36,787 nucleotides of DNA from the NCBI GenBank assembly GCA_016290195.1, contig JAEETF010000072.1, positions 1 to 36,787 on the forward strand, given 5' to 3'. Below are positions 5,693 to 18,109 of the stretch, one piece after another (the first letter of the stretch is position 1; each line of letters starts with the position of its first letter). The notes beneath the pieces are model-generated. The model was not told where the DNA came from. It searched no databases and saw nothing but the letters and a program-made list of their open reading frames with translations. Made by a program: the position numbers and the translations under genes. The stretch is from Bacilli bacterium (GTDB lineage: Bacteria > Bacillota_I > Bacilli_A > RF39 > UBA660).

Positions 5693-5790
5693 ATTTTGCT
5701 CCTTTCGTTAAGTATTATTTTCAAAAAAATAAAAATTATACATAATTAATAATAATTTAAATATAATTTAATGAAATTAATTATGAGGTG

Positions 5791-6795
5791 ATGATTTTGA
5801 AAAAAAAGTTTTTTGTTTTTTTATTAGTAGTATTTAGTTTTATAATTACTGGATGTAATAAATATGATAAAAATGATATTACTAAAAATTTAAAAAAACT
5901 ACTTGATAAAAATAAGGGATATTGTTTAAATGGTGAACTTGAAATATTTAATAATGAAGATAGTTATATTTATGATGTTAATGTTTATTATAGTAAGGAT
6001 GATAATTATAAAGTATCATTAAAGAATAAAATTAATAATCATGAACAAATTATTCTAAGAAATAATGATGGTGTTTATGTACTTACTCCATCATTAAATA
6101 AAAGTTTTAAGTTTCAAAGTGAATGGCCATATAATAATTCACAAAGTTATTTAATTCAGACTTTATTAAAAGATATGGAAAATGATGAAAATATAAAATT
6201 TGAAAAAAATGATAATGGTTATATAGTAACTACTAAAGTTAATTATTCAAATAATAAAGATTTAATTAAGCAAAATATTTATTTAGATAATAATATAAAT
6301 ATAACTGATGTTCATATATTGGATAAAGAAGAAAATGTTAAAATGAAAATGCATTTTAATAAAATAGATTATAATAATGGTTATGATGAAAATTTTTTTA
6401 CACTTGATGAAAATATGGCATCTGTAACTTATGAAAAAGAAGAAACAGTAAGTAAACTTGAAGATATTATATATCCAATGTATTTACCAACAGGTACTTA
6501 TTTAGGCTCACAGGATGTTGTTGCAACTGATGATGGAGAAAGATTAATATTAACATTTGAAGGTGAAAAACCATTTATGTTTGTACAAGAAACTGCTGCA
6601 ATACCTAATAATTTAATGACTATACCAGTAGATGGAGAACCAGAACTAATAGCTGATACAGTGGCAGCATTAACTGATTCATCTATCGCTTGGTCAAACA
6701 ATGGTGTTGAATATTATGTAGTTTCTGATACCTTAAATAAAGATGAACTTTTAAGTGTAGCTAAATCAGTAAGTGTTATGCCAATAGCAAAATAA
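5791..6795 (+). CDS. lipoprotein with LolA-like N-terminal region and DUF4367-like C-terminal region (possible sporulation/germination lipoprotein)
   Basis: Lipobox ITGC; LolA-fold-like beta-strand pattern; C-terminal LTFEGEKPFMFVQETAA...SIAWSNNGVEYYVVSDTLNKDELLSVAKSV resembles DUF4367. Exact start uncertain. Confidence 0.65.
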   Translation: MILKKKFFVFLLVVFSFIITGCNKYDKNDITKNLKKLLDKNKGYCLNGELEIFNNEDSYIYDVNVYYSKDDNYKVSLKNKINNHEQIILRNNDGVYVLTPSLNKSFKFQSEWPYNNSQSYLIQTLLKDMENDENIKFEKNDNGYIVTTKVNYSNNKDLIKQNIYLDNNINITDVHILDKEENVKMKMHFNKIDYNNGYDENFFTLDENMASVTYEKEETVSKLEDIIYPMYLPTGTYLGSQDVVATDDGERLILTFEGEKPFMFVQETAAIPNNLMTIPVDGEPELIADTVAALTDSSIAWSNNGVEYYVVSDTLNKDELLSVAKSVSVMPIAK

Positions 6796-7579: not shown

Positions 7580-7608
7580 TTGAAAGAAATATATATATAT
7601 AGTATAAT
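7580..7608 (+). promoter_or_regulatory. SigA-type promoter for the VWA/XpaC/TelA operon
   Basis: TTGAAA (7580-7585), 17-nt spacer, TATAAT (7603-7608), with AAGGGATGA upstream of the first gene. Confidence 0.7.
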
Positions 7609-7633
7609 TTTAATAGTGTAAAGGGATGATTTG

Positions 7634-9238
7634 ATGGAAAAGAAAAGAAGTTCAAGTTTACCTATAGTATTATTTTTAGCTTTCTTTTTTATAATATTTA
7701 CAAATATGATCGATAAATCTATTAATAATAATTCTAATAAGGAAAAAACAATTGATAATGGAGTATTTGATTTATTAGTTAGTTCTGAAAATAAAGACTT
7801 AGAAGATGTTATTAAAGATTATTTTAAAAAGAAGAATGTTAAACTTAATATTGAATATGCAGGAACTATAGATATTATGGAAAAAATCAATAGTGGAGAA
7901 GCATATGATGCAATATGGGCTTCTAATTCTATATGGCTTTATATGCTTGATAATACATCTATAGTTAAAAATTCAAAATCAACTTCTATTAATCCTATAG
8001 TTTTTGGAATTAAAAAATCTAAAGCAGAAGAATTAGGATTAGTAAATAAAGAAGTATATACAAAAGACATATTAAATAAAATTAAAAATGGTGATTTAAA
8101 TTTTGTAATGAGTTCAGCTACTAGAACAAATACAGGTGCTTCTGCATATTTGGGATTTGTAACAACACTTGCTGGTAATCCTGAAGTTTTGACTATTGAA
8201 GATTTAGATAATAATTCTTTAAATGAAAAACTTGTAAATTTTTTATCTGGTGTTGAAAGAACATCTGGTAGTGATGAATTTTTAGATACACTATTATTAA
8301 ATAATAAATATGATGCTGCAGTTGCATATGAATCTTCATTTATTAATTTAAATAAAAAATTAGCAAGTGAAGGAAAAGAACCATTTTATTTAATATATCC
8401 AGTAGATGGAGTTACAATATCTGATTCACCACTTGCATATTTAAATAATGGCAATAAATATGAAAAAGAATTTAATGAATTTCAAAGTTATATTTTGAGT
8501 GATGAAGGACAAAATGAACTTGCTAAATATGGAAGACGTGTTTGGTATGGTGGGGTAAATCCTAATGCCGATAAAGATGTATTTAATAAAGAATGGGGTA
8601 TTGATACTTCTAAATATGTTGTTCCAATTAAATATCCTAGTGTTACAGTTATTAAAAAAGCTCTTAGTCTATATCAATCTGAACTTAGAAAACCAACTCA
8701 TACAGTATTTTGCCTAGATTATTCAGGAAGTATGTCTGGTAAAGGTAATGAACAATTAGTAGATGCAATGAAATATATTCTAACTGAAGAAACAGCATCT
8801 AAAAATCTACTTCAATTTTCAGCTAAAGATAAAATAACTATTATTCCATTTGCAACCATTGTCATGCCAGAGGTAACTACTACAGATGGAACAAAAGTTG
8901 AAAAATTAATATATGAAGTAGAAAATACTGAAGTTGGACATACTACCAATATATATGGTTCTTTGGAAAAAGCTATTTCAATACTTGAAAAAGAAGACAG
9001 TAATAAATACAATTTATCAATTATACTTATGACTGATGGAGAAGGTAATGAAGGTTCCTTTAAAAGTTTTTCTAGAGCATATGATAAAGCAGGAAAAGAT
9101 ATACCAATATATGGAATACTATTTGGAAGTGCTGATGATGATCAATTATTAGAAATTAGTTCTTATACTGGTGGTAAAGTTTTTGATGGCAGAAGTAACT
9201 TACTTGCAGCTTTTAAAGAAGTAAGGGGTTATAATTAA
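7634..9238 (+). CDS. membrane-anchored extracellular solute-binding-like domain fused to a von Willebrand factor type A domain
   Basis: N-terminal TM anchor; substrate-binding-like region (DLLVSSENKDLEDVIKDYFKKKNVKLNIEYAGTIDIMEKI...); C-terminal VWA with full MIDAS (DYSGSMS ... TTN ... LMTDGEGN). Confidence 0.85.
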   Translation: MEKKRSSSLPIVLFLAFFFIIFTNMIDKSINNNSNKEKTIDNGVFDLLVSSENKDLEDVIKDYFKKKNVKLNIEYAGTIDIMEKINSGEAYDAIWASNSIWLYMLDNTSIVKNSKSTSINPIVFGIKKSKAEELGLVNKEVYTKDILNKIKNGDLNFVMSSATRTNTGASAYLGFVTTLAGNPEVLTIEDLDNNSLNEKLVNFLSGVERTSGSDEFLDTLLLNNKYDAAVAYESSFINLNKKLASEGKEPFYLIYPVDGVTISDSPLAYLNNGNKYEKEFNEFQSYILSDEGQNELAKYGRRVWYGGVNPNADKDVFNKEWGIDTSKYVVPIKYPSVTVIKKALSLYQSELRKPTHTVFCLDYSGSMSGKGNEQLVDAMKYILTEETASKNLLQFSAKDKITIIPFATIVMPEVTTTDGTKVEKLIYEVENTEVGHTTNIYGSLEKAISILEKEDSNKYNLSIILMTDGEGNEGSFKSFSRAYDKAGKDIPIYGILFGSADDDQLLEISSYTGGKVFDGRSNLLAAFKEVRGYN

Positions 9239-9239
9239 T

Positions 9240-9875
9240 ATGAAGAAAAAATATATTATATCAGGTATTTTAGGGGGCAGCTTTTTTGCAGCATCTAATC
9301 TAATAATTGGATTAAGTGTTTTACCTTCAATAGCTATTGCAGCTACATCTTTTCTAGCAAGTGCAATGATATTTAAAGAAGATTATGATCTTGATGATTT
9401 AGGAGAACAAAATAAGAATACTTATCGAAAACTTTTAATTGATAGTAATAAAGATTTAGAATCTTTGAAAAAGTTAAAACACAATATTTCTGATTATAGT
9501 ATTAATGATAATATTGAAAATATTATTAAAACTGCTGAAAAAATAATTAAAGTGTTGCATAAGAAACCAGATAAAATTAGTTCAGCAACTAAATTTTTAA
9601 ATTATTATTTACCAATTACAATTAAAATATTAGAACGTTTTGATGAAATAGATGAACAAAAATTAACTAGTAAATCTAGTAGAGATTTTTTAGAAAGAAC
9701 AAGAAAATTAACTGTTAAAATTGAAAATGCTTTTGAAAATCAACTTAATAATTTATATAATGATGAATTAATTGATACAAATGCAGAAATAAAAGTATTT
9801 GAATCAGTATTAAAATCTGATGGTTTACTAGATGATGCTATCATTAATAAAAAGGATGGTGATAAAGATGAATAA
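9240..9875 (+). CDS. xpaC: XpaC-like (5-bromo-4-chloroindolyl phosphate hydrolysis family) protein
   Basis: Two N-terminal TM segments followed by helical region with LKHNISDYSINDNIENIIKTAEKIIKVL...KFLNYYLPITIKILERFDEI, characteristic of XpaC; followed by telA. Confidence 0.8.
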   Translation: MKKKYIISGILGGSFFAASNLIIGLSVLPSIAIAATSFLASAMIFKEDYDLDDLGEQNKNTYRKLLIDSNKDLESLKKLKHNISDYSINDNIENIIKTAEKIIKVLHKKPDKISSATKFLNYYLPITIKILERFDEIDEQKLTSKSSRDFLERTRKLTVKIENAFENQLNNLYNDELIDTNAEIKVFESVLKSDGLLDDAIINKKDGDKDE

Positions 9876-10986
9876 AAGTATTAAAGGAATAGGAATTGGC
9901 GTACTTGTTTTACTTATTTTAATTCTTGGAGTAATAGAAGGTAAAAAAATATTTAAGGAACAAACATCTACTATTACTATTTATGGTGCAGTAGGTGGAG
10001 GTAAAGAGAATTTACTTGAGGATGAAGAATTTCTTCAAATTGTAAAAAAAGAATTTAAAGCAGAAGTTGTTAATGATACTTGGAGTAATGGTAAATTAAT
10101 AGTTAAAGATGTTGTGAGAGAAGATGGTTCAAAATATGATTTTATTTTCTTCTCAGATCAAAGATTTTATGACTATTATAAAACTCCAGCAAATAAAGAA
10201 AACAATGAAGCTGATAGATATACTGTATTAAAGGGAAGTTTAACGCTTAATACACCAGTTGTTATATATAGCTGGGATGAAGTAGTTGATGCACTTATTA
10301 AAGAAGAAATTGTTACAGAACAAAATGGAGTATATTACATTACAGGAATGGAAAAACTTTTAAATTATATATTAGAAGGAAAAACATGGAGTGATATAGG
10401 TCTTAAAACTTTATATGGAAAAATCAATATTGATTCTACTGATCCTGTAACATCATCACCTGGTGCGACATATTATGGTTTAGTTGCTTCTATTATGGCA
10501 GGTGGACAATTAACGGATGAAAACTATAAAGAAATTTTACCTAAATTAAAAGAGTTTTATATTAAATCTGGTTATATGAATAATACACCAGCTGATTTAT
10601 TTCAATTATATTTAAAGACAGGTATGGGAGCTAAACCAATGATAGTTGATTATGAAAAGAGTATTATTGATTTTGCTAATTCAAATCCAGATGGATATAA
10701 TCAAGTAAAGGATCGAATTAGAATTCTTTATCCAGTTCCAACAATTTGGAATTCACATTGTATAGCATCTTTATCAGAAAATGGTAATACTTATTATGAT
10801 ATTTTTGAAAATAAAGATATTCAAAAAATTGCTTGGTCTAAATATGGATTTAGAACAGGTGTAACAGGCGGTAATTACGATGTATCAGATGTTATTGTAA
10901 AAGGAATACCACAAAGTATTTCAGCTACAGTTTCAAGTTTAAAAATGAATTATTATAATGAAATGATAGATTATTTAAAAAATTAG
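9868..10986 (+). CDS. membrane-anchored solute-binding-protein-like protein
   Basis: N-terminal TM, then ITIYGAVGGGKENLLEDEEFLQIVKKEFKAEVVNDTWSNG..., periplasmic-binding-like. ATG 9868 overlaps the xpaC stop by 8 nt. Confidence 0.7.
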   Translation: MNKSIKGIGIGVLVLLILILGVIEGKKIFKEQTSTITIYGAVGGGKENLLEDEEFLQIVKKEFKAEVVNDTWSNGKLIVKDVVREDGSKYDFIFFSDQRFYDYYKTPANKENNEADRYTVLKGSLTLNTPVVIYSWDEVVDALIKEEIVTEQNGVYYITGMEKLLNYILEGKTWSDIGLKTLYGKINIDSTDPVTSSPGATYYGLVASIMAGGQLTDENYKEILPKLKEFYIKSGYMNNTPADLFQLYLKTGMGAKPMIVDYEKSIIDFANSNPDGYNQVKDRIRILYPVPTIWNSHCIASLSENGNTYYDIFENKDIQKIAWSKYGFRTGVTGGNYDVSDVIVKGIPQSISATVSSLKMNYYNEMIDYLKN

Positions 10987-10995
10987 GAGGTAAAT

Positions 10996-12129
10996 ATGGA
11001 AAATAATTTAGAAATTAAGGTTCTTGAAAATTTAGAACCAATTAAAACAAATATTGATGGAGTAACAAATGTTACAGAAGAACAAGTAGCTTCTTCTCTT
11101 GATTACAATAATTTAACTGTTCAAGAAAAAGCTGCTATTGATGAATTTGTAGGTAAAATTGATGAAAAAGATACTAATGTAATAATTAGCTTTGGATCAC
11201 CTGCGCAAACTAAAATTTCACAATTTTCTGATGAAATATTAAAAAGTGTTAGAACTAAAGATTTAGGACAAGTTGGTAATTTACTTGCTGATTTAGCTGG
11301 TGAAATTAAATCATTTGATGGTGGTATTAATGTTAATATGAAACCAAGTTTGTTTAATTCAATTAAAAAACAAATTAATAGAATACTAGCTAAATTCAGT
11401 AAAGTAGAAACTAATATTAATAAAATTGAAAAACAACTTGAAGGGCATAAAGTACAAATGATGAAAGATATTGCAATCTTTGATGAAATGTATGAAAAAA
11501 ATATTGAATATTTTAAAGAATTATCTTTATATATAATTGCTGGAAATAAAAAACTTGATCAAATTAGAAATGAAATTATACCAGCACTTCATGATAAAGC
11601 AGAAAAAACTGGTGAACAAAATGATGTACAAGCATATAATGATATGATTAATATTGCTAATCGTTTTGAAAAAAAATTATATGATTTAAAAACAACTCGT
11701 ATTATTTCTATTCAAATGGCACCACAAATTAGATTAATTCAAAATAATGATGCAGAACTAGTTGATAAAATTCAATCTTCAATTATTAATACTATTCCTT
11801 TATGGAAAAATCAAATGGTTATAGCACTTGGACTTACTAATGCAAGTAGAGCTTTAGATGCACAAGAAAAAGTTACTAATTTGACAAATGATATGCTTAA
11901 GAAGAATAGTGAAATATTAAAACAAGGTTCTATTAAAATAGCTCAAGAATCAGAAAGAGCAGTAGTTGATTTAGAAACTGTTAAGAAAACTAATCAAGAT
12001 TTGATGGATACTATTGAATCAATAATTAAAATTCATGAAGAAGGTTCTCAAAAACGTGCTCAAGCTGAAAATGAATTAAATAAAATTGAAAATGATCTTA
12101 AAGCAAAATTATTAGAATTAAAGGCATAG
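10996..12129 (+). CDS. telA: toxic anion resistance protein TelA family
   Basis: IISFGSPAQTKISQFSDEILKSVRTKDLGQVGNLLADLAGEIKSF ... IPLWKNQMVIALGLTNASRALDAQEKVTNLTNDMLKKNSE are TelA-family signatures. Confidence 0.92.
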   Translation: MENNLEIKVLENLEPIKTNIDGVTNVTEEQVASSLDYNNLTVQEKAAIDEFVGKIDEKDTNVIISFGSPAQTKISQFSDEILKSVRTKDLGQVGNLLADLAGEIKSFDGGINVNMKPSLFNSIKKQINRILAKFSKVETNINKIEKQLEGHKVQMMKDIAIFDEMYEKNIEYFKELSLYIIAGNKKLDQIRNEIIPALHDKAEKTGEQNDVQAYNDMINIANRFEKKLYDLKTTRIISIQMAPQIRLIQNNDAELVDKIQSSIINTIPLWKNQMVIALGLTNASRALDAQEKVTNLTNDMLKKNSEILKQGSIKIAQESERAVVDLETVKKTNQDLMDTIESIIKIHEEGSQKRAQAENELNKIENDLKAKLLELKA

Positions 12130-12148
12130 AGTAATCTTGCCTTTTTTC
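12121..12148 (+). terminator. intrinsic terminator after telA
   Basis: AAGGCA ... TGCCTT stem followed by T-run. Confidence 0.7.
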
Positions 12149-12221
12149 ACTATAATTTCACAATACTAACATAACTTTAACAATAATATATAGTATGATG
12201 TTATCGTGAAAGGAAGGAATT

Positions 12222-13724
12222 ATGAATAAAGAAAATAAAATAATATTAGTCATTTTAAGTATAATTTTAGTATTAGTAATATGTATAGTTGTTGTAATAA
12301 ATAAGACAAGTAGTACAAATAATGATACTAATAATAGTACACAAAATGCAAATAGTACTGTAAATGATGATAGCAAAGATGACAATACAAAAACGTCAAG
12401 TGATACAGCAAATAATACTGAAAAAGATTTTAGTGAATATCCAGCTTACGAAATAAATCTTTCAGAAAAAAGTGATAAGGTTGAAATTGTTGAAAAGGGA
12501 GTTTATACATTAACTGGAACTTTAAAAGGTTATGTTTACGTAAATACTGAAGAAAATGTAAAATTAGTATTAGATAATGTAACTATAGAAAATAGTAGTG
12601 GACCAGCAATATATATAGTATCAGCTAAAAATACTTATATTGAACTTGTTGGTACTTCTAAACTTTCTGATGGAAATACTTATAGTGAGTTTGATGAAGA
12701 AGTTAATGCTGTAATATATAGTAAAGATGATTTATTTATAATGGGTGAAGGCACATTAAATGTAGTAGCAAATTTTGAAGATGGTATTATAAGTAAAGAT
12801 GATTTAACTATTTATAATGGAACCATTAATGTTACTTCTGCTGATGATGCTATTAGAGGTAAAGATTCAGTAACAATATATGATGGAAATATTAACGTTA
12901 TATCTGGTGGTGATGGAATTAAAACTACTAATTCTGAAGATACAGAAAAAGGTAATATTGTTATTGAAAAAGGTAATATTAAGATTGAATCATCAAATGA
13001 TGGTATTCAAGCAGAAAATAGTGTTACGCTAAATGGTGGAACTTATAATATCGTTACTAATGGTGGTAGTAAAAGTGCTATGACATATAGTGAATGGAAT
13101 AATAGTTCAAGTGAAGAGGAAGAATCTACAAAAGCCATAAAAGCTGGTGTTGATATTACTATAAATGATGGTGAATTTAATTTTAGTGTAACTGATGATG
13201 GTATACATTCTAATAATAATGTGATAATTAATACTGGTAATTTCAAAATAACTAGTGATGATGATGCTATTCATGCTGATGGCATGGCAGAAATAAATGG
13301 TGGAATATTTAGCTTAACTGCTCATGAAGGTATAGAAGCAACATATGTAAAAATAAATGATGGAACAATTAATATAGAAGCTTCTGATGATGGTATAAAT
13401 GCAGGACAAAAATCAACAGAGTATGCAGTATTAATTGAAATAAATGGTGGTGATATTACTATAAAAATGGGTAGTGGTGATACTGATGGAATTGATTCTA
13501 ATGGTGATTTATATATTACAGGTGGTACTATAAATGTTACTGGTAATTCAGCATTTGATTATGATGGACAGGTAAAATATACTGGTGGAAAACTAATTGT
13601 TAATGGAAAAGAAACAACCACAATTACTAATCAAATGATGGGTGGAGGTATGATGGAAAACCGCGGTAATATGCCTTATGATCAAATGAATGGTGAAATA
13701 CCACAAGGAAGAATGATGAGGTAA
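12222..13724 (+). CDS. carbohydrate-binding domain-containing (DUF4353-like) repeat protein, membrane anchored
   Basis: N-terminal TM, Ser/Thr/Asn linker, then repeats of (A)DDGI.. / GGxxxI (SADDAIRGKDSVTIYDGNINVISGGDGIKT..., SDDGINAGQ...) typical of DUF4353 beta-helix proteins; Met/Gly-rich tail. Confidence 0.85.
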   Translation: MNKENKIILVILSIILVLVICIVVVINKTSSTNNDTNNSTQNANSTVNDDSKDDNTKTSSDTANNTEKDFSEYPAYEINLSEKSDKVEIVEKGVYTLTGTLKGYVYVNTEENVKLVLDNVTIENSSGPAIYIVSAKNTYIELVGTSKLSDGNTYSEFDEEVNAVIYSKDDLFIMGEGTLNVVANFEDGIISKDDLTIYNGTINVTSADDAIRGKDSVTIYDGNINVISGGDGIKTTNSEDTEKGNIVIEKGNIKIESSNDGIQAENSVTLNGGTYNIVTNGGSKSAMTYSEWNNSSSEEEESTKAIKAGVDITINDGEFNFSVTDDGIHSNNNVIINTGNFKITSDDDAIHADGMAEINGGIFSLTAHEGIEATYVKINDGTINIEASDDGINAGQKSTEYAVLIEINGGDITIKMGSGDTDGIDSNGDLYITGGTINVTGNSAFDYDGQVKYTGGKLIVNGKETTTITNQMMGGGMMENRGNMPYDQMNGEIPQGRMMR

Positions 13725-13742
13725 CATTAGTTACCTTTTTTA
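13720..13742 (+). terminator. intrinsic terminator
   Basis: GGTAAC-ATTA-GTTACC followed by T-run. Confidence 0.75.
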
Positions 13743-13816
13743 ATTTATAAAAAAAATATACAAATTTAGTAATTTTGTGATACAATAATGTATAGGATAG
13801 GAATAGGGGTAGTTAT

Positions 13817-15097
13817 ATGAATTTTATTAAAGAAAGATTAAACTATGTAATTATATTTTTTGCAGCTGTTGCTATTATAGCTTGTTTATTCCCTTTTGCC
13901 ACAGTTTCAACAACCACAAATAAGATTACTACTTCAATGGCTATGTTTTTTTTAAATCTTGATGGCAGTGGAAGTAGTCCAATAGGTATAGTTGTCGCCT
14001 TAATTTTAATTGCAATAATAATACTATCGTTTTTTAGAAATAGAATTCCTAAATTGTTAGTATCAATATTTTTATTATCTGTATCCGCATTAGGAATTAC
14101 TGCATATTATATTTTTAATATTAGAGGAATTGCTAGTAGTGTTACATCTGCTTCTGAAGATGTAAAACTTGGCTTTGGTTGCTATTCAATAGTATTATGT
14201 TTATTAGTTATTATTGGTATAAGTGGTTATGACTTATTTTCTAGATATAAAAAAGGTAAAAAAGAAGAAGTTAAAAATGTACCAGAAAATAATGATTTAC
14301 AAAATGTAATGCCTTCTATGGAAAGTGCAAATGCAATAGTGCAACCAAATCTTGTTATACAGCAACAAGAAAATTTACAACCATTAAATGAGGTTTCAAC
14401 TATACCGCAACCAGAAAATTTACAACCATCAAATGATGTTTCAACTATGCCACAACCAGAAAATTTGCAACCTTCAACTGTACCATTACAAGAAAATATA
14501 CCAAGTACTGATGCACCTGCTGCAATTGAACAATCACTTTATTTTGCTAATCCAGAAGAGCCAGCTGAAGTAACAGTACCACCACTAGTACCAGAAGTTG
14601 CTACTACTAATAATGTTGAAAATAATGATGTAACTACTGATATAAATGAATTTGGTGAGCAATTAATGAATTCAAATGAGCCAGTTACTAATCGATTTTT
14701 TCAAGTACCAACAACGGTACCTGTAGAAACTACTGAAACAGATAATAATATGGCAATATTCAATCAGACTACGGACAATAATTCTGTTTTAGGTTCAGAA
14801 ATAAGTAATAATCAAATACCTACAACAGTTCCTATAGAAAATAGTGAAGCAAACATATTTAATAATTCTAATTTGGTTGTAGATTCAAATAATACTCAAT
14901 CATCTGAACAAAATAATATATTTAATCAAATGCCAATTAATAATGAAATGAATAGTACTGATGCACCAGTAGAAACAAATATATTTAATAATCAACCGAT
15001 TAATGAATCTAAAGATGAAATAGAAGTATTAGATATATTTGATGAACCAACAACAAATGATAATTCAAATTTTGATAATGATGAATTTAAATATTAA
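13817..15097 (+). CDS. multi-pass membrane protein with long low-complexity cytoplasmic or surface tail
   Basis: About four hydrophobic segments in the first 150 aa, then Asn/Gln/Pro/Thr-rich tail with ENLQPxNxVSTxPQP repeats. Confidence 0.75.
   Translation: MNFIKERLNYVIIFFAAVAIIACLFPFATVSTTTNKITTSMAMFFLNLDGSGSSPIGIVVALILIAIIILSFFRNRIPKLLVSIFLLSVSALGITAYYIFNIRGIASSVTSASEDVKLGFGCYSIVLCLLVIIGISGYDLFSRYKKGKKEEVKNVPENNDLQNVMPSMESANAIVQPNLVIQQQENLQPLNEVSTIPQPENLQPSNDVSTMPQPENLQPSTVPLQENIPSTDAPAAIEQSLYFANPEEPAEVTVPPLVPEVATTNNVENNDVTTDINEFGEQLMNSNEPVTNRFFQVPTTVPVETTETDNNMAIFNQTTDNNSVLGSEISNNQIPTTVPIENSEANIFNNSNLVVDSNNTQSSEQNNIFNQMPINNEMNSTDAPVETNIFNNQPINESKDEIEVLDIFDEPTTNDNSNFDNDEFKY
14369..14475 (+). 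repeat. 45-bp in-frame tandem repeat (2 full copies plus a partial third)
   Basis: GAAAATTTACAACCA..AATGA.GTTTCAACTAT.CC.CAACCA copies start at 14369, 14414 and 14459 (exact 45-nt spacing). Confidence 0.9.
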
Positions 15098-15107
15098 TGA
15101 TATTTAT

Positions 15108-15132
15108 GCTACCGTTTGGTAGCTTTTTTTTT
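15108..15132 (+). terminator. intrinsic terminator
   Basis: GCTACC-GTTT-GGTAGC followed by T9. Confidence 0.8.
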
Positions 15133-15179
15133 ATCAAATTTTTATGATATAATAAATTTGTAAAAGAGGAGTGTACAAA

Positions 15180-15572
15180 ATGAAAGAAGTTTATGATTTT
15201 TTAAAAAAATGTGGGACATTTTATATAGCTACAATTGATGGTGATAAGCCAAGGGTAAGACCATTTGGAGTAGTAAATATTTTTGAAGGAAAATTATATA
15301 TCCAATCTGGTAAATCAAAAAATGTATCAAAACAAATACAAATTAATCCTAATATAGAAATATGTGCTTTTTTAGATGGTAAATGGATAAGAATTGAAGG
15401 AAAAGTTGTACGTGATGATAGAAGAGAAGCTAAAGTAAGTATGTTAGATGCTAATCCAGTGTTAAAAAGCATGTATTCAGCAGATGATGATAATACAGAA
15501 GTACTATATTTTGAAAATGCAAAAGCTACATTTTATTCATTTACAGAAGCACCTAAAGTAATAGAATTTTAA
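15180..15572 (+). CDS. pyridoxamine 5'-phosphate oxidase family (flavin-binding split-barrel) protein
   Basis: FYIATIDGDKPRVRPFGVVNIFEGKLYIQSGKSKNVSKQI ... WIRIEGKVV, typical PPOX-like family. Confidence 0.85.
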   Translation: MKEVYDFLKKCGTFYIATIDGDKPRVRPFGVVNIFEGKLYIQSGKSKNVSKQIQINPNIEICAFLDGKWIRIEGKVVRDDRREAKVSMLDANPVLKSMYSADDDNTEVLYFENAKATFYSFTEAPKVIEF

Positions 15573-15581
15573 TTATATAAA

Positions 15582-15609
15582 AACGATTTAGAATTGACTA
15601 AATCGTTTA
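15582..15609. terminator. bidirectional terminator
   Basis: AAACGATTTAG-AATTGA-CTAAATCGTTT between convergent genes; A-run on one side and T-run on the other. Confidence 0.8.
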
Positions 15610-16394
15610 TTTTTTATAATTCTTTCTAATATGCAAACTAAGTAATACATTATAGTTGATAATATACAAAGTAATAATACTCCTGTCATTACTAAATGAA
15701 GATTAAATACTTGTGAACCATACATAATTAAATATCCTAATCCTTCTTTTGATACTAGAAGTTCTCCCATTGAAACACCGATTAAAGACATACTAATATT
15801 TACTTTTAATGTACTAATAATATTACTAATATTACTAGGAATAAGTAGTTTAAAATAGATTTGTTTTTTATTTGCTTTTAATGCTTTCATTAATTTGAGT
15901 TTATTATTATCAATTGATTCAAATCCTTGATAAATATTAATAATAGTAATAATTAATGATATTAATAGAGCCATTAATATAATCGATTTAAAACCTGCAC
16001 CACACCATATAATTATTATTGGACCTAGTGCTACTTTAGGAAGACTATTTAAAATTGTTAGATATGGATCTAATATTTTAGAAATAGTTTTTTTATGCCA
16101 AAGAAAACTGGCAAATAATAATCCTAAAATAGTACTTAATGTAAAACTAATAATAGTTTCTATTGTTGTGATGTAAATATGATGAAATAAGTTATTTGTT
16201 TTAAATAGTTTTATAATTGTTTTAATAATATCTAATGGACTAGAAAATATAAATCTATTTATTAAATTAAAACTAGTAAGTAATTGCCATAAAATAATAA
16301 ATATAATTATGATACTTAACTGCATTATTTTAATAAATATTTTTTCTTTTTTCTTTTTATTTAAATATAAAATATGTTCTTTACTATACATCAT
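15588..16394 (-). CDS. ABC transporter permease (NitT/TauT type)
   Basis: IIWCGAGFKSIILMALLISLIITIINIYQGFESID and LNSLPKVALGPIIIIWCGAG (EAA-like loop); coupled to ATPase gene. Likely start M(M)YSKEHI overlapping ATPase stop. Confidence 0.85.
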   Translation of the reverse strand: MMYSKEHILYLNKKKKEKIFIKIMQLSIIIIFIILWQLLTSFNLINRFIFSSPLDIIKTIIKLFKTNNLFHHIYITTIETIISFTLSTILGLLFASFLWHKKTISKILDPYLTILNSLPKVALGPIIIIWCGAGFKSIILMALLISLIITIINIYQGFESIDNNKLKLMKALKANKKQIYFKLLIPSNISNIISTLKVNISMSLIGVSMGELLVSKEGLGYLIMYGSQVFNLHLVMTGVLLLCILSTIMYYLVCILERIIKNKRFSQF

Positions 16395-17133
16395 AATCAA
16401 GTTCTTTCCATATTTGATCATAATAGTCATTAAATTCTTTACATTTACGATTATTAATAGGATTTGTTTTATTTGTTAAATTAATTATATGTTCTTTTTT
16501 GATAGTAGCTGGTCTTTTAGTTAAAACAATAATTCTATCTGAAATAGAAATTGCTTCGGCAATATCATGAGTTACTATAATCGCACTTTTTCTTTCATCT
16601 TTTAAAATATTATATACATCATTGGAAACATTAATTCTTGATTGATAATCAAGAGCAGAAAAAGATTCATCAAGAAGTAAAATATCGGGTTTAGTAGCAA
16701 GTGTTCTAATTAGAGCTACACGCTGTCTCATACCACCAGATAATTCACTAGGTTTACTATTAATAAAATCTTTTAATCCATATTTATTTAATAATTCTAG
16801 AACATATTTTTTATTTTCTATAGTATTTTTATTTTGTATTTCTAATCCTAGCATACAATTATCAAAAACACATCTCCAGTCAAATAAACAATCAGATTGC
16901 AACATATAACCAACTTTTTTATTATTTTCAATATTTATTATGCCATCAGTTTTATTTTCTAAACCACAAATAATAGATAGTATAGTTGATTTTCCACATC
17001 CTGATGGTCCAACAATAGATATAATTTCACCTTCAAATAAATCAAATGAAATATCTTTAAGAGCTACTATTTCATCATTATCAGTGTGATAATTCTTTTT
17101 TAAATTTTTAACTGTTAATATTTTCTTTGGCAT
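16384..17133 (-). CDS. ABC transporter ATP-binding protein (NitT/TauT type)
   Basis: Walker A GPSGCGKST, signature LSGGMRQRVALIR, Walker B DILLLDESFSALD, H-loop VTHDIAEA. Confidence 0.92.
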   Translation of the reverse strand: MPKKILTVKNLKKNYHTDNDEIVALKDISFDLFEGEIISIVGPSGCGKSTILSIICGLENKTDGIINIENNKKVGYMLQSDCLFDWRCVFDNCMLGLEIQNKNTIENKKYVLELLNKYGLKDFINSKPSELSGGMRQRVALIRTLATKPDILLLDESFSALDYQSRINVSNDVYNILKDERKSAIIVTHDIAEAISISDRIIVLTKRPATIKKEHIINLTNKTNPINNRKCKEFNDYYDQIWKELDYDV

Positions 17134-18109
17134 ATCTATTATCTACTAATTTCTCAAATGGTGCATATGGATTTTCAACACCAGCATTTGCCATTATTTC
17201 TTGAACATGGTTAAAATCTTTTTCATTTATATAAGTGGTATCATACCAAGAATCAATGCTTCTATATCTTTTTACTATTGCTTCTAAGTCATTAAGTGAT
17301 ACATCTGGAAAATATGGTAATATTGTTTCTGCAACTTCTTTATCAGTATGAGTATTTACATAATCAATTCCTTTTTGAATAGCTTTTGAAAAACCTTGGA
17401 TAACTTCTGGATTATTTTCAATATAACTTTTACGGGCATTATAAGCAGTATATGGAATAGTACCACCTAATTCACCAAGAGAAGCAACTACATATCCAAA
17501 ACCTTGTTTTTCTAGTTGTAAAGCAGTTGGTTCAAATAAAGAGACATAATCACCAGTGCCACCAATAAATGCTCCGCTCATAGCAGCAAATGCAATACTT
17601 GTATCAATTTTTACATCTTTATTTGGAATTATATTATTTTGTGTTAATATCCATTCAAGTGTCATTTCTGGCATTCCATATTGGCGTCCACCAATAATGA
17701 ATGATCCTTTTAAATCCTCAAGTTTAAAGTTGTCTTGCTTTGCTCTAGATACTAAAAAACTACCATCTCGTTTAGTTAATCCAGCAAAATTTATAAGATA
17801 GTCTTTTTCGTTTTGATTGTATACATAAATTGTTGCTTCACTGCCACAAAAACCAATTTGAACATCACCTGATAATACAGCTGCTGTAACTTTATCAGCT
17901 CCAGATGCTAAAACTATTTCTACATAAAGTCCTTCTTCTTCAAAATAACCAAGAGCATGTGCAGCATATTGTGGCGCATAAAATACACTATGAGCTACTT
18001 CAGCAAGTCTTACTTTTCTTAAATCATTAGTTTTATTTTTAATTGCTATTAAGAATATTGTTATAATAATTATTATAAATGAAACTATTGGAAAAATAAT
18101 TCTTTTCAT
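17108..18109 (-). CDS. ABC transporter substrate-binding protein (NMT1/THI5-like / NitT-TauT family)
   Basis: VRLAEVAHSVFYAPQYAAHALGYFEEEGLYVEIVLASGADKVTAAVLSGDVQIGFCG; adjacent permease and ATPase. Confidence 0.88.
   Translation of the reverse strand: MKRIIFPIVSFIIIIITIFLIAIKNKTNDLRKVRLAEVAHSVFYAPQYAAHALGYFEEEGLYVEIVLASGADKVTAAVLSGDVQIGFCGSEATIYVYNQNEKDYLINFAGLTKRDGSFLVSRAKQDNFKLEDLKGSFIIGGRQYGMPEMTLEWILTQNNIIPNKDVKIDTSIAFAAMSGAFIGGTGDYVSLFEPTALQLEKQGFGYVVASLGELGGTIPYTAYNARKSYIENNPEVIQGFSKAIQKGIDYVNTHTDKEVAETILPYFPDVSLNDLEAIVKRYRSIDSWYDTTYINEKDFNHVQEIMANAGVENPYAPFEKLVDNRYAKENINS

Follow-up and report, generated by a model that had tools for sequence, protein, structure and literature searches.

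What can a TelA protein have to do with ligand binding at the cell surface? TelA and XpaC are widespread proteins whose molecular role is little understood; they are named after tellurite and a dye-phosphate assay, respectively. In a 36,787-nt stretch of DNA from a gut Bacilli bacterium (GTDB lineage RF39, UBA660; GenBank assembly GCA_016290195.1, contig JAEETF010000072.1, positions 1–36,787, termed here the window), genes for both proteins are part of a closely packed four-gene operon at positions 7634–12129, all on the (+) strand. The gene order is S1, XpaC, S2, TelA, where S1 is a solute-binding protein (SBP) fused to a VWA domain and S2 is a second binding protein. Because the same ordered set recurs in dozens of distant genomes, the four genes very probably form one working surface-to-cytoplasm system, as judged from gene neighborhoods.

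Conservation of the unit was followed with S2 as bait. A scan of 85,462 species genomes yielded 150 S2 relatives, of which 80 were kept, nearly all from uncultured Bacilli or Clostridia by title; duplicates were removed from the locus set, which was completed with the window and three genomes from the same family. The order and strand of S1-XpaC-S2 are kept in 81 of 81 loci whose contigs are long enough (another one is truncated at the end of its contig), and TelA is next after S2 in 75 of the 81. Outside the block no widely shared flanking gene is found across these loci, the largest other sequence cluster having 14 genes. The original prediction depended on the four genes being neighbors in related genomes, and they are co-conserved, with varying flanks. 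Since S2 was the bait, the 81 loci show that S2 is always accompanied by S1 and XpaC. For the converse there is a survey of the family: of 37 genomes, the same five (G000, G001, G009, G019 and G020) carry S1, XpaC and a full-strength TelA, and in one other genome (G029) a divergent TelA stands by itself. The pairwise distances for XpaC, S2 and TelA are mutually correlated (r 0.85–0.87). Of 396 genomes in the phylum, 3 have the module, as do 2 of 300 genomes of a sample around one Clostridia locus; both counts include the central genome. On these counts the four-gene set is a rare but recurrent module.

S1 (positions 7634–9238; ATG start, with a TTG 3 nt upstream) matches the Pfam family SBP_bac_11 at about residues 54–301 (E-value = 4e-18; 66.6 bits, cut-off 25) and a VWA domain at its C-terminal region, residues 358–517 (E-value = 6e-14). 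Hydropathy displays a hydrophobic stretch at open reading frame (ORF) residues 5–31, which is a predicted N-terminal membrane anchor. The metal ion-dependent adhesion site (MIDAS) is intact, with D363, S365, S367, T439 and D469 (ORF numbering). Among 78 relatives, conservation of these residues is 98% or more, and they also occur in relatives from three other phyla. The Pfam matches and the conserved residues agree with the fusion of a binding protein to a VWA domain with an intact MIDAS that was first proposed. The binding domain is closest to ModA-type molybdate binders, weakly (NCBIfam and PDB profiles), and also gives a weak profile match to PDB entry 6lkg. In one relative (L050) a complete module is followed, after a few genes, by a second, diverged SBP-VWA fusion (positions 13869–15545).

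S2 (positions 9868–10986) has no credible Pfam match, and no solved relative was found by sequence. Its sequence is related to that of S1: blastp between the S2 and S1 proteins of relatives gives E-values down to 5e-7 with about 29% identity, and the S2 and S1 profiles align across the binding domain (hhalign, E-value = 5e-8). An AlphaFold2 model of S2 is of medium confidence (pLDDT 74.7). A Foldseek search with this model shows type-II SBPs throughout the best PDB matches (E-values to 3e-11), with TM-scores of only about 0.5 because of the medium model quality. Ferric (FbpA, FutA), molybdate (ModA), sulfate, polyamine and sugar binders are included, and the second-best match is 6lkg, deposited as an SBP mediating two-component signal transduction. 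S2 also carries an N-terminal hydrophobic stretch, a predicted membrane anchor. It is called a binding protein because it is homologous to S1 and its model matches solute-binding proteins; a membrane-anchored type-II SBP fold, paralogous to the binding domain of S1, is well supported by profile and model comparisons. The fold is a general one and therefore does not tell the ligand. The N-terminal regions of S1 and S2 might have proved not to be binding-protein folds; this is not borne out, given SBP_bac_11 in S1 and the SBP matches of S2, and S2 is the anchored, SBP-like protein that had been described.

XpaC (positions 9240–9875) matches PF10112 with an E-value of 1e-22 (81 bits, cut-off 29.8) over model positions 4–190 of 191, and TelA (positions 10996–12129) matches PF05816 with an E-value of 1e-116 (390 bits, cut-off 30) over model positions 1–331 of 332. 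These full-length matches confirm both names. Residues 5–45 of XpaC form a hydrophobic N-terminus, probably with two spans, followed by a helical domain. TelA is predicted to be soluble and all-helical, with no hydrophobic span; its structure model is helical but of low confidence (pLDDT 59), and no solved relative was found by sequence. Hydropathy is thus in accordance with the prediction that S1, XpaC and S2 are membrane-anchored whereas TelA is not. A second, divergent TelA-like protein of 447 amino acids (aa) is found in the same genome (G000:C53; L101, positions 1243–2586; TelA E-value = 6e-13).

The four ORFs are at the positions first given, and the gaps of 1, −8 and 9 nt between S1/XpaC, XpaC/S2 and S2/TelA are exact. 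One strong promoter and one terminator were thought to bracket the genes. The terminator stands: an intrinsic hairpin at 12120–12148 on the (+) strand overlaps the TelA stop codon and is followed by a T run (−11.7 kcal/mol, z = −3.75, 0 of 200 shuffles as good). A terminator scan overlooked it, probably on account of its loop length. The promoter-like site TTGAAA-N17-TATAAT at 7580–7608 on the (+) strand has 11 of 12 consensus matches and is among the two best-scoring sites in the window, but a promoter scan of the window found 44 such sites and 47 ± 7 in shuffles. As the DNA is AT-rich and such sites are equally frequent in shuffles, the promoter is plausible, as a good match without statistical support. 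Also as predicted, a Pfam scan shows no ABC permease or ATPase gene inside the operon. The nearest ABC transporter found is on the opposite strand at 15588–18109, 3.5 kb off, and has its own NMT1-type binding protein.

Several flanking genes were noted. Just upstream of the operon (5788–6795) is a lipoprotein with a sub-threshold match to the germination lipoprotein GerS, and several Clostridia loci have genes similar to spore-germination receptor subunits, convergent and downstream of TelA. Directly after the operon (12222–13724) is a Cthe_2159-type carbohydrate-binding protein, which is not a conserved neighbor.

Relatives of the module are also present outside the Firmicutes. Plasmid records searched by tblastn with S1 and S2 show relatives of both at the same loci. 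Variovorax has S2-TelA-(small ORF)-S1-208 aa protein; in Sphaerotilus the genes run S2-TelA-S1-226 aa protein, in Nonomuraea (a record labelled plasmid, though 11.85 Mb long) S2-380 aa protein-S1-206 aa protein, and in Deinococcus S2-S1-212 aa protein. The S2 homology of these four copies is solid (E-values 1e-21 to 1e-32), and the MIDAS of S1 is intact in all four. The TelA copies of Variovorax and Sphaerotilus have Pfam matches that confirm them, and the 380 aa protein of Nonomuraea looks like a TelA by size, position and sequence. The last protein of these loci has an XpaC-like size and N-terminal spans and gives a weak colinear hhalign match (E-value = 4e-4, probability 35%); it is probably a distant XpaC. 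The S2-TelA-S1 grouping is thus found in two further phyla, Pseudomonadota and Actinomycetota, and S2-S1 in Deinococcota. Variovorax (L142, positions 1–2144 and 11502–15455) has a flotillin/OB-fold pair on one side of the module and a Wadjet-type system on the other.

The cytoplasmic side of the module varies. In 35 loci an AAA+ gene directly follows TelA, with a median gap of 15 nt (e.g. L009, 542–2116; L010, 6297–7871). The protein belongs to the CbbX/SpoVK/EccA group, has its own N-terminal region of about 250 residues, and is confined to one clade of the S2 tree (support 94). The window S2 is outside this clade; it groups with L013–L017, apart from the three other family genomes on the tree, a placement that, on this tree, is to be read either as transfer or as ancient divergence followed by loss. 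In five loci, all with a divergent XpaC, the operon has no TelA. In L055 (11011–11973), L069 (11098–12078) and L080 an SPFH/Band_7_1 protein, assigned by Pfam on the L069 copy, takes the place of TelA after S2, beside the divergent XpaC; this substitution is fitting for a membrane-stress role. In L040 and L052 (11086–11400 in both) a Cys- and His-rich protein of 104 aa, with no family, replaces TelA after S2, and TelA is found elsewhere in the genome.

What may such a unit do? The reading that we favor, to which we give an even chance, is that the four proteins make one trans-envelope complex that senses a ligand or envelope stress and acts through XpaC on TelA. It builds on the features described above, i.e. 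the conserved unit, the domain identities, the hydrophobic anchors, the intact MIDAS, the binding-protein fold and the AAA+ linkage. S1 and S2 would be held by their membrane anchors with the binding domains on the outer side, and one or both SBP clefts would take up a ligand, which may be a small anion, a complexed metal, or a molecule that is antimicrobial or derived from the envelope. The VWA domain of S1 would bind a metal at the MIDAS and, via this metal, an acidic residue of a partner, probably on S2 or on a cell-surface ligand. The occupied state would then be relayed across the membrane by XpaC to cytoplasmic TelA, and the helical TelA would change the tolerance to membrane or envelope stress. 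In one lineage, the CbbX/SpoVK-type AAA+ may remodel or reset the TelA complex.

A sensor is preferred over a transporter because the unit is co-conserved, has no transporter partner, and carries its binding proteins on membrane anchors, and because the XpaC-TelA literature supports a role in envelope stress. xpaC-yaaN belongs to the core sigmaW envelope-stress regulon of B. subtilis (PMC3498285). In Listeria, lmo1966-1967 (XpaC-TelA) is induced by the bacteriocin garvicin KS (PMC12791056), and a TelA mutant, in the account given there, is 4-fold more sensitive to nisin and 2-fold more sensitive to tellurite (PMC12791056, citing Collins 2010). The better-documented relatives of the pair implicate stress on the envelope or from cationic peptides no less than metals (PMC3498285, PMC12791056). 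A precedent for an SBP as sensor is provided by 6lkg, which matches both S2 and, weakly, the S1 domain.

Several points weigh against the sensor reading. The outward orientation, complex formation and contact, the ligand, the direction of the signal and its output are all steps that we infer. Co-conservation indicates a shared function, not signaling as such, and the S1 distances correlate less with those of the other three proteins (r 0.62–0.68). XpaC-TelA pairs without S1 and S2 exist, e.g. XpaC-TelA-TPM in Vescimonas, thus TelA does not need the surface pair. No AAA+ of this kind is found anywhere in the assembled genome of the window, and no mechanism can be read from the weak TelA model. 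The first interpretation, a surface complex connected to TelA through XpaC, is accordingly supported in part, i.e. for its domains, the S2 fold, the anchors, the missing transporter partner and the co-conservation. A wider and more tentative proposal, which we regard as possible rather than likely, is a cross-phylum surface-sensing system in which paired SBPs, one with a MIDAS VWA domain, read an extracellular ligand and control TelA via XpaC, and in which the cytoplasmic partner can be exchanged (TelA, alone or with AAA+, or SPFH).

The AAA+ linkage permits a different view, namely that the module is a surface assembly or metallation machine which maintains or metal-loads envelope components, the SBPs capturing substrate instead of sensing. 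VWA domains often pair with AAA+ ATPases (MoxR-VWA, RavA-ViaA, Mg chelatase), and in the 35 loci the AAA+ adjoins TelA. This is nonetheless an unlikely explanation, if one to be taken seriously: the VWA domain is predicted outside and the AAA+ inside, the AAA+ is of the CbbX type and not of the MoxR type, and 40 TelA-bearing loci, some of them cut by contig ends, have no adjacent AAA+, the gene being restricted to the single S2 clade. Somewhat less probable still is sequestration, in which S1 and S2 would bind a toxic oxyanion (tellurite-like) or a metal outside and TelA-XpaC would handle the damage, with no signaling. The weak ModA resemblance of S1, the abundance of ferric, molybdate and sulfate binders in the S2 Foldseek list, and the effect of the Lactococcus orf53-telA-telB-telC operon on tellurite tolerance (PMC13109727) are consistent with it; however, one binding protein fixed to the membrane in each complex would make a poor sink, the hosts are mostly gut metagenome-assembled genomes with no known tellurite exposure, and the general SBP fold is uninformative on the ligand.

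A conflict or defense module, anti-phage or anti-bacteriocin, is improbable. The patchy distribution, the unconserved flanks, the Wadjet system 3 kb away in Variovorax and weak matches of the AAA+ to PADLOC IetA models could suggest one, but the IetA/IteA matches span the AAA+ domain only and are far below the CbbX/SpoVK scores. A known anti-phage system was rejected, as the four window proteins have no PADLOC match and S2 was not found on phage records. Very improbable is that S1 and S2 are orphan receptors of an ABC importer encoded elsewhere, with the XpaC-TelA linkage being co-regulation only. The SBP fold normally serves ABC importers, and one lies 3.5 kb away in the window, but that transporter has a binding protein of its own, the flanks of the 81 loci share no conserved gene family, and the pairing with TelA persists across phyla. 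Import receptors are not known to carry VWA fusions.

Part of the module is already known: NCBI has a product name for the fusion protein, and the pairing of XpaC with TelA has been described. Full-text literature searches, whose coverage misses most subscription papers, found no paper joining TelA, XpaC and VWA. The combination of XpaC-TelA with a second SBP, linked to a CbbX-type AAA+ or SPFH protein, was not met in the searched literature, although it may have been described earlier. A conserved tie of TelA and XpaC to extracytoplasmic ligand-binding domains and a metal-dependent VWA domain offers a concrete, testable input and, if the wider cross-phylum proposal is true, the module would be the first in which TelA receives an upstream input. 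The recurrence across phyla and the exchange of TelA for SPFH are natural experiments.

Among known systems, xpaC-yaaN of B. subtilis and lmo1966-lmo1967 of Listeria share adjacent XpaC and TelA genes and envelope-stress regulation, but the operon as described (PMC3498285, PMC12791056) is without surface binding proteins, VWA or AAA+. The operon of Lactococcus cremoris, compared by description, is likewise a four-gene operon with TelA and a link to tellurite tolerance (PMC13109727). The kla operon of IncP plasmids (kilA-telA-telB; RK2-type) also has TelA in a compact operon, and TelA is the sole shared part: KlaA is a TelA paralogue, and KlaC/TelB, considered as a relative of S1 or S2, was ruled out as it has no similarity to S1, S2 or XpaC.

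The pair had also been assigned to a Ter-like module. The TelA/XpaC pairing holds, but the Ter label is loose, as no TerB, TerC or TerD is found among the scanned window proteins (part of the window ORFs) and relatives have no conserved flank genes. TelA and VWA proteins (TerY-type) do occur in the wider Ter context; the VWA domain here differs in being fused to an SBP and predicted extracytoplasmic. HptA (6lkg) is similar as a type-II SBP used for signaling and ranks with the best structural matches. Its partner is a histidine kinase, whereas no kinase gene is adjacent here.

A further likeness is in the proteins that NCBI names “substrate-binding and VWA domain-containing protein” (Streptomyces, Variovorax and others), which display the same SBP-VWA fusion with an intact MIDAS. 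The copy on a Streptomyces plasmid has no TelA on the same plasmid. In Variovorax, Sphaerotilus and Nonomuraea the fusion adjoins TelA and an S2 homologue, with a different gene order and a fourth gene that is only probably a distant XpaC. For these proteins, known by that name only, the module provides a hint of function.

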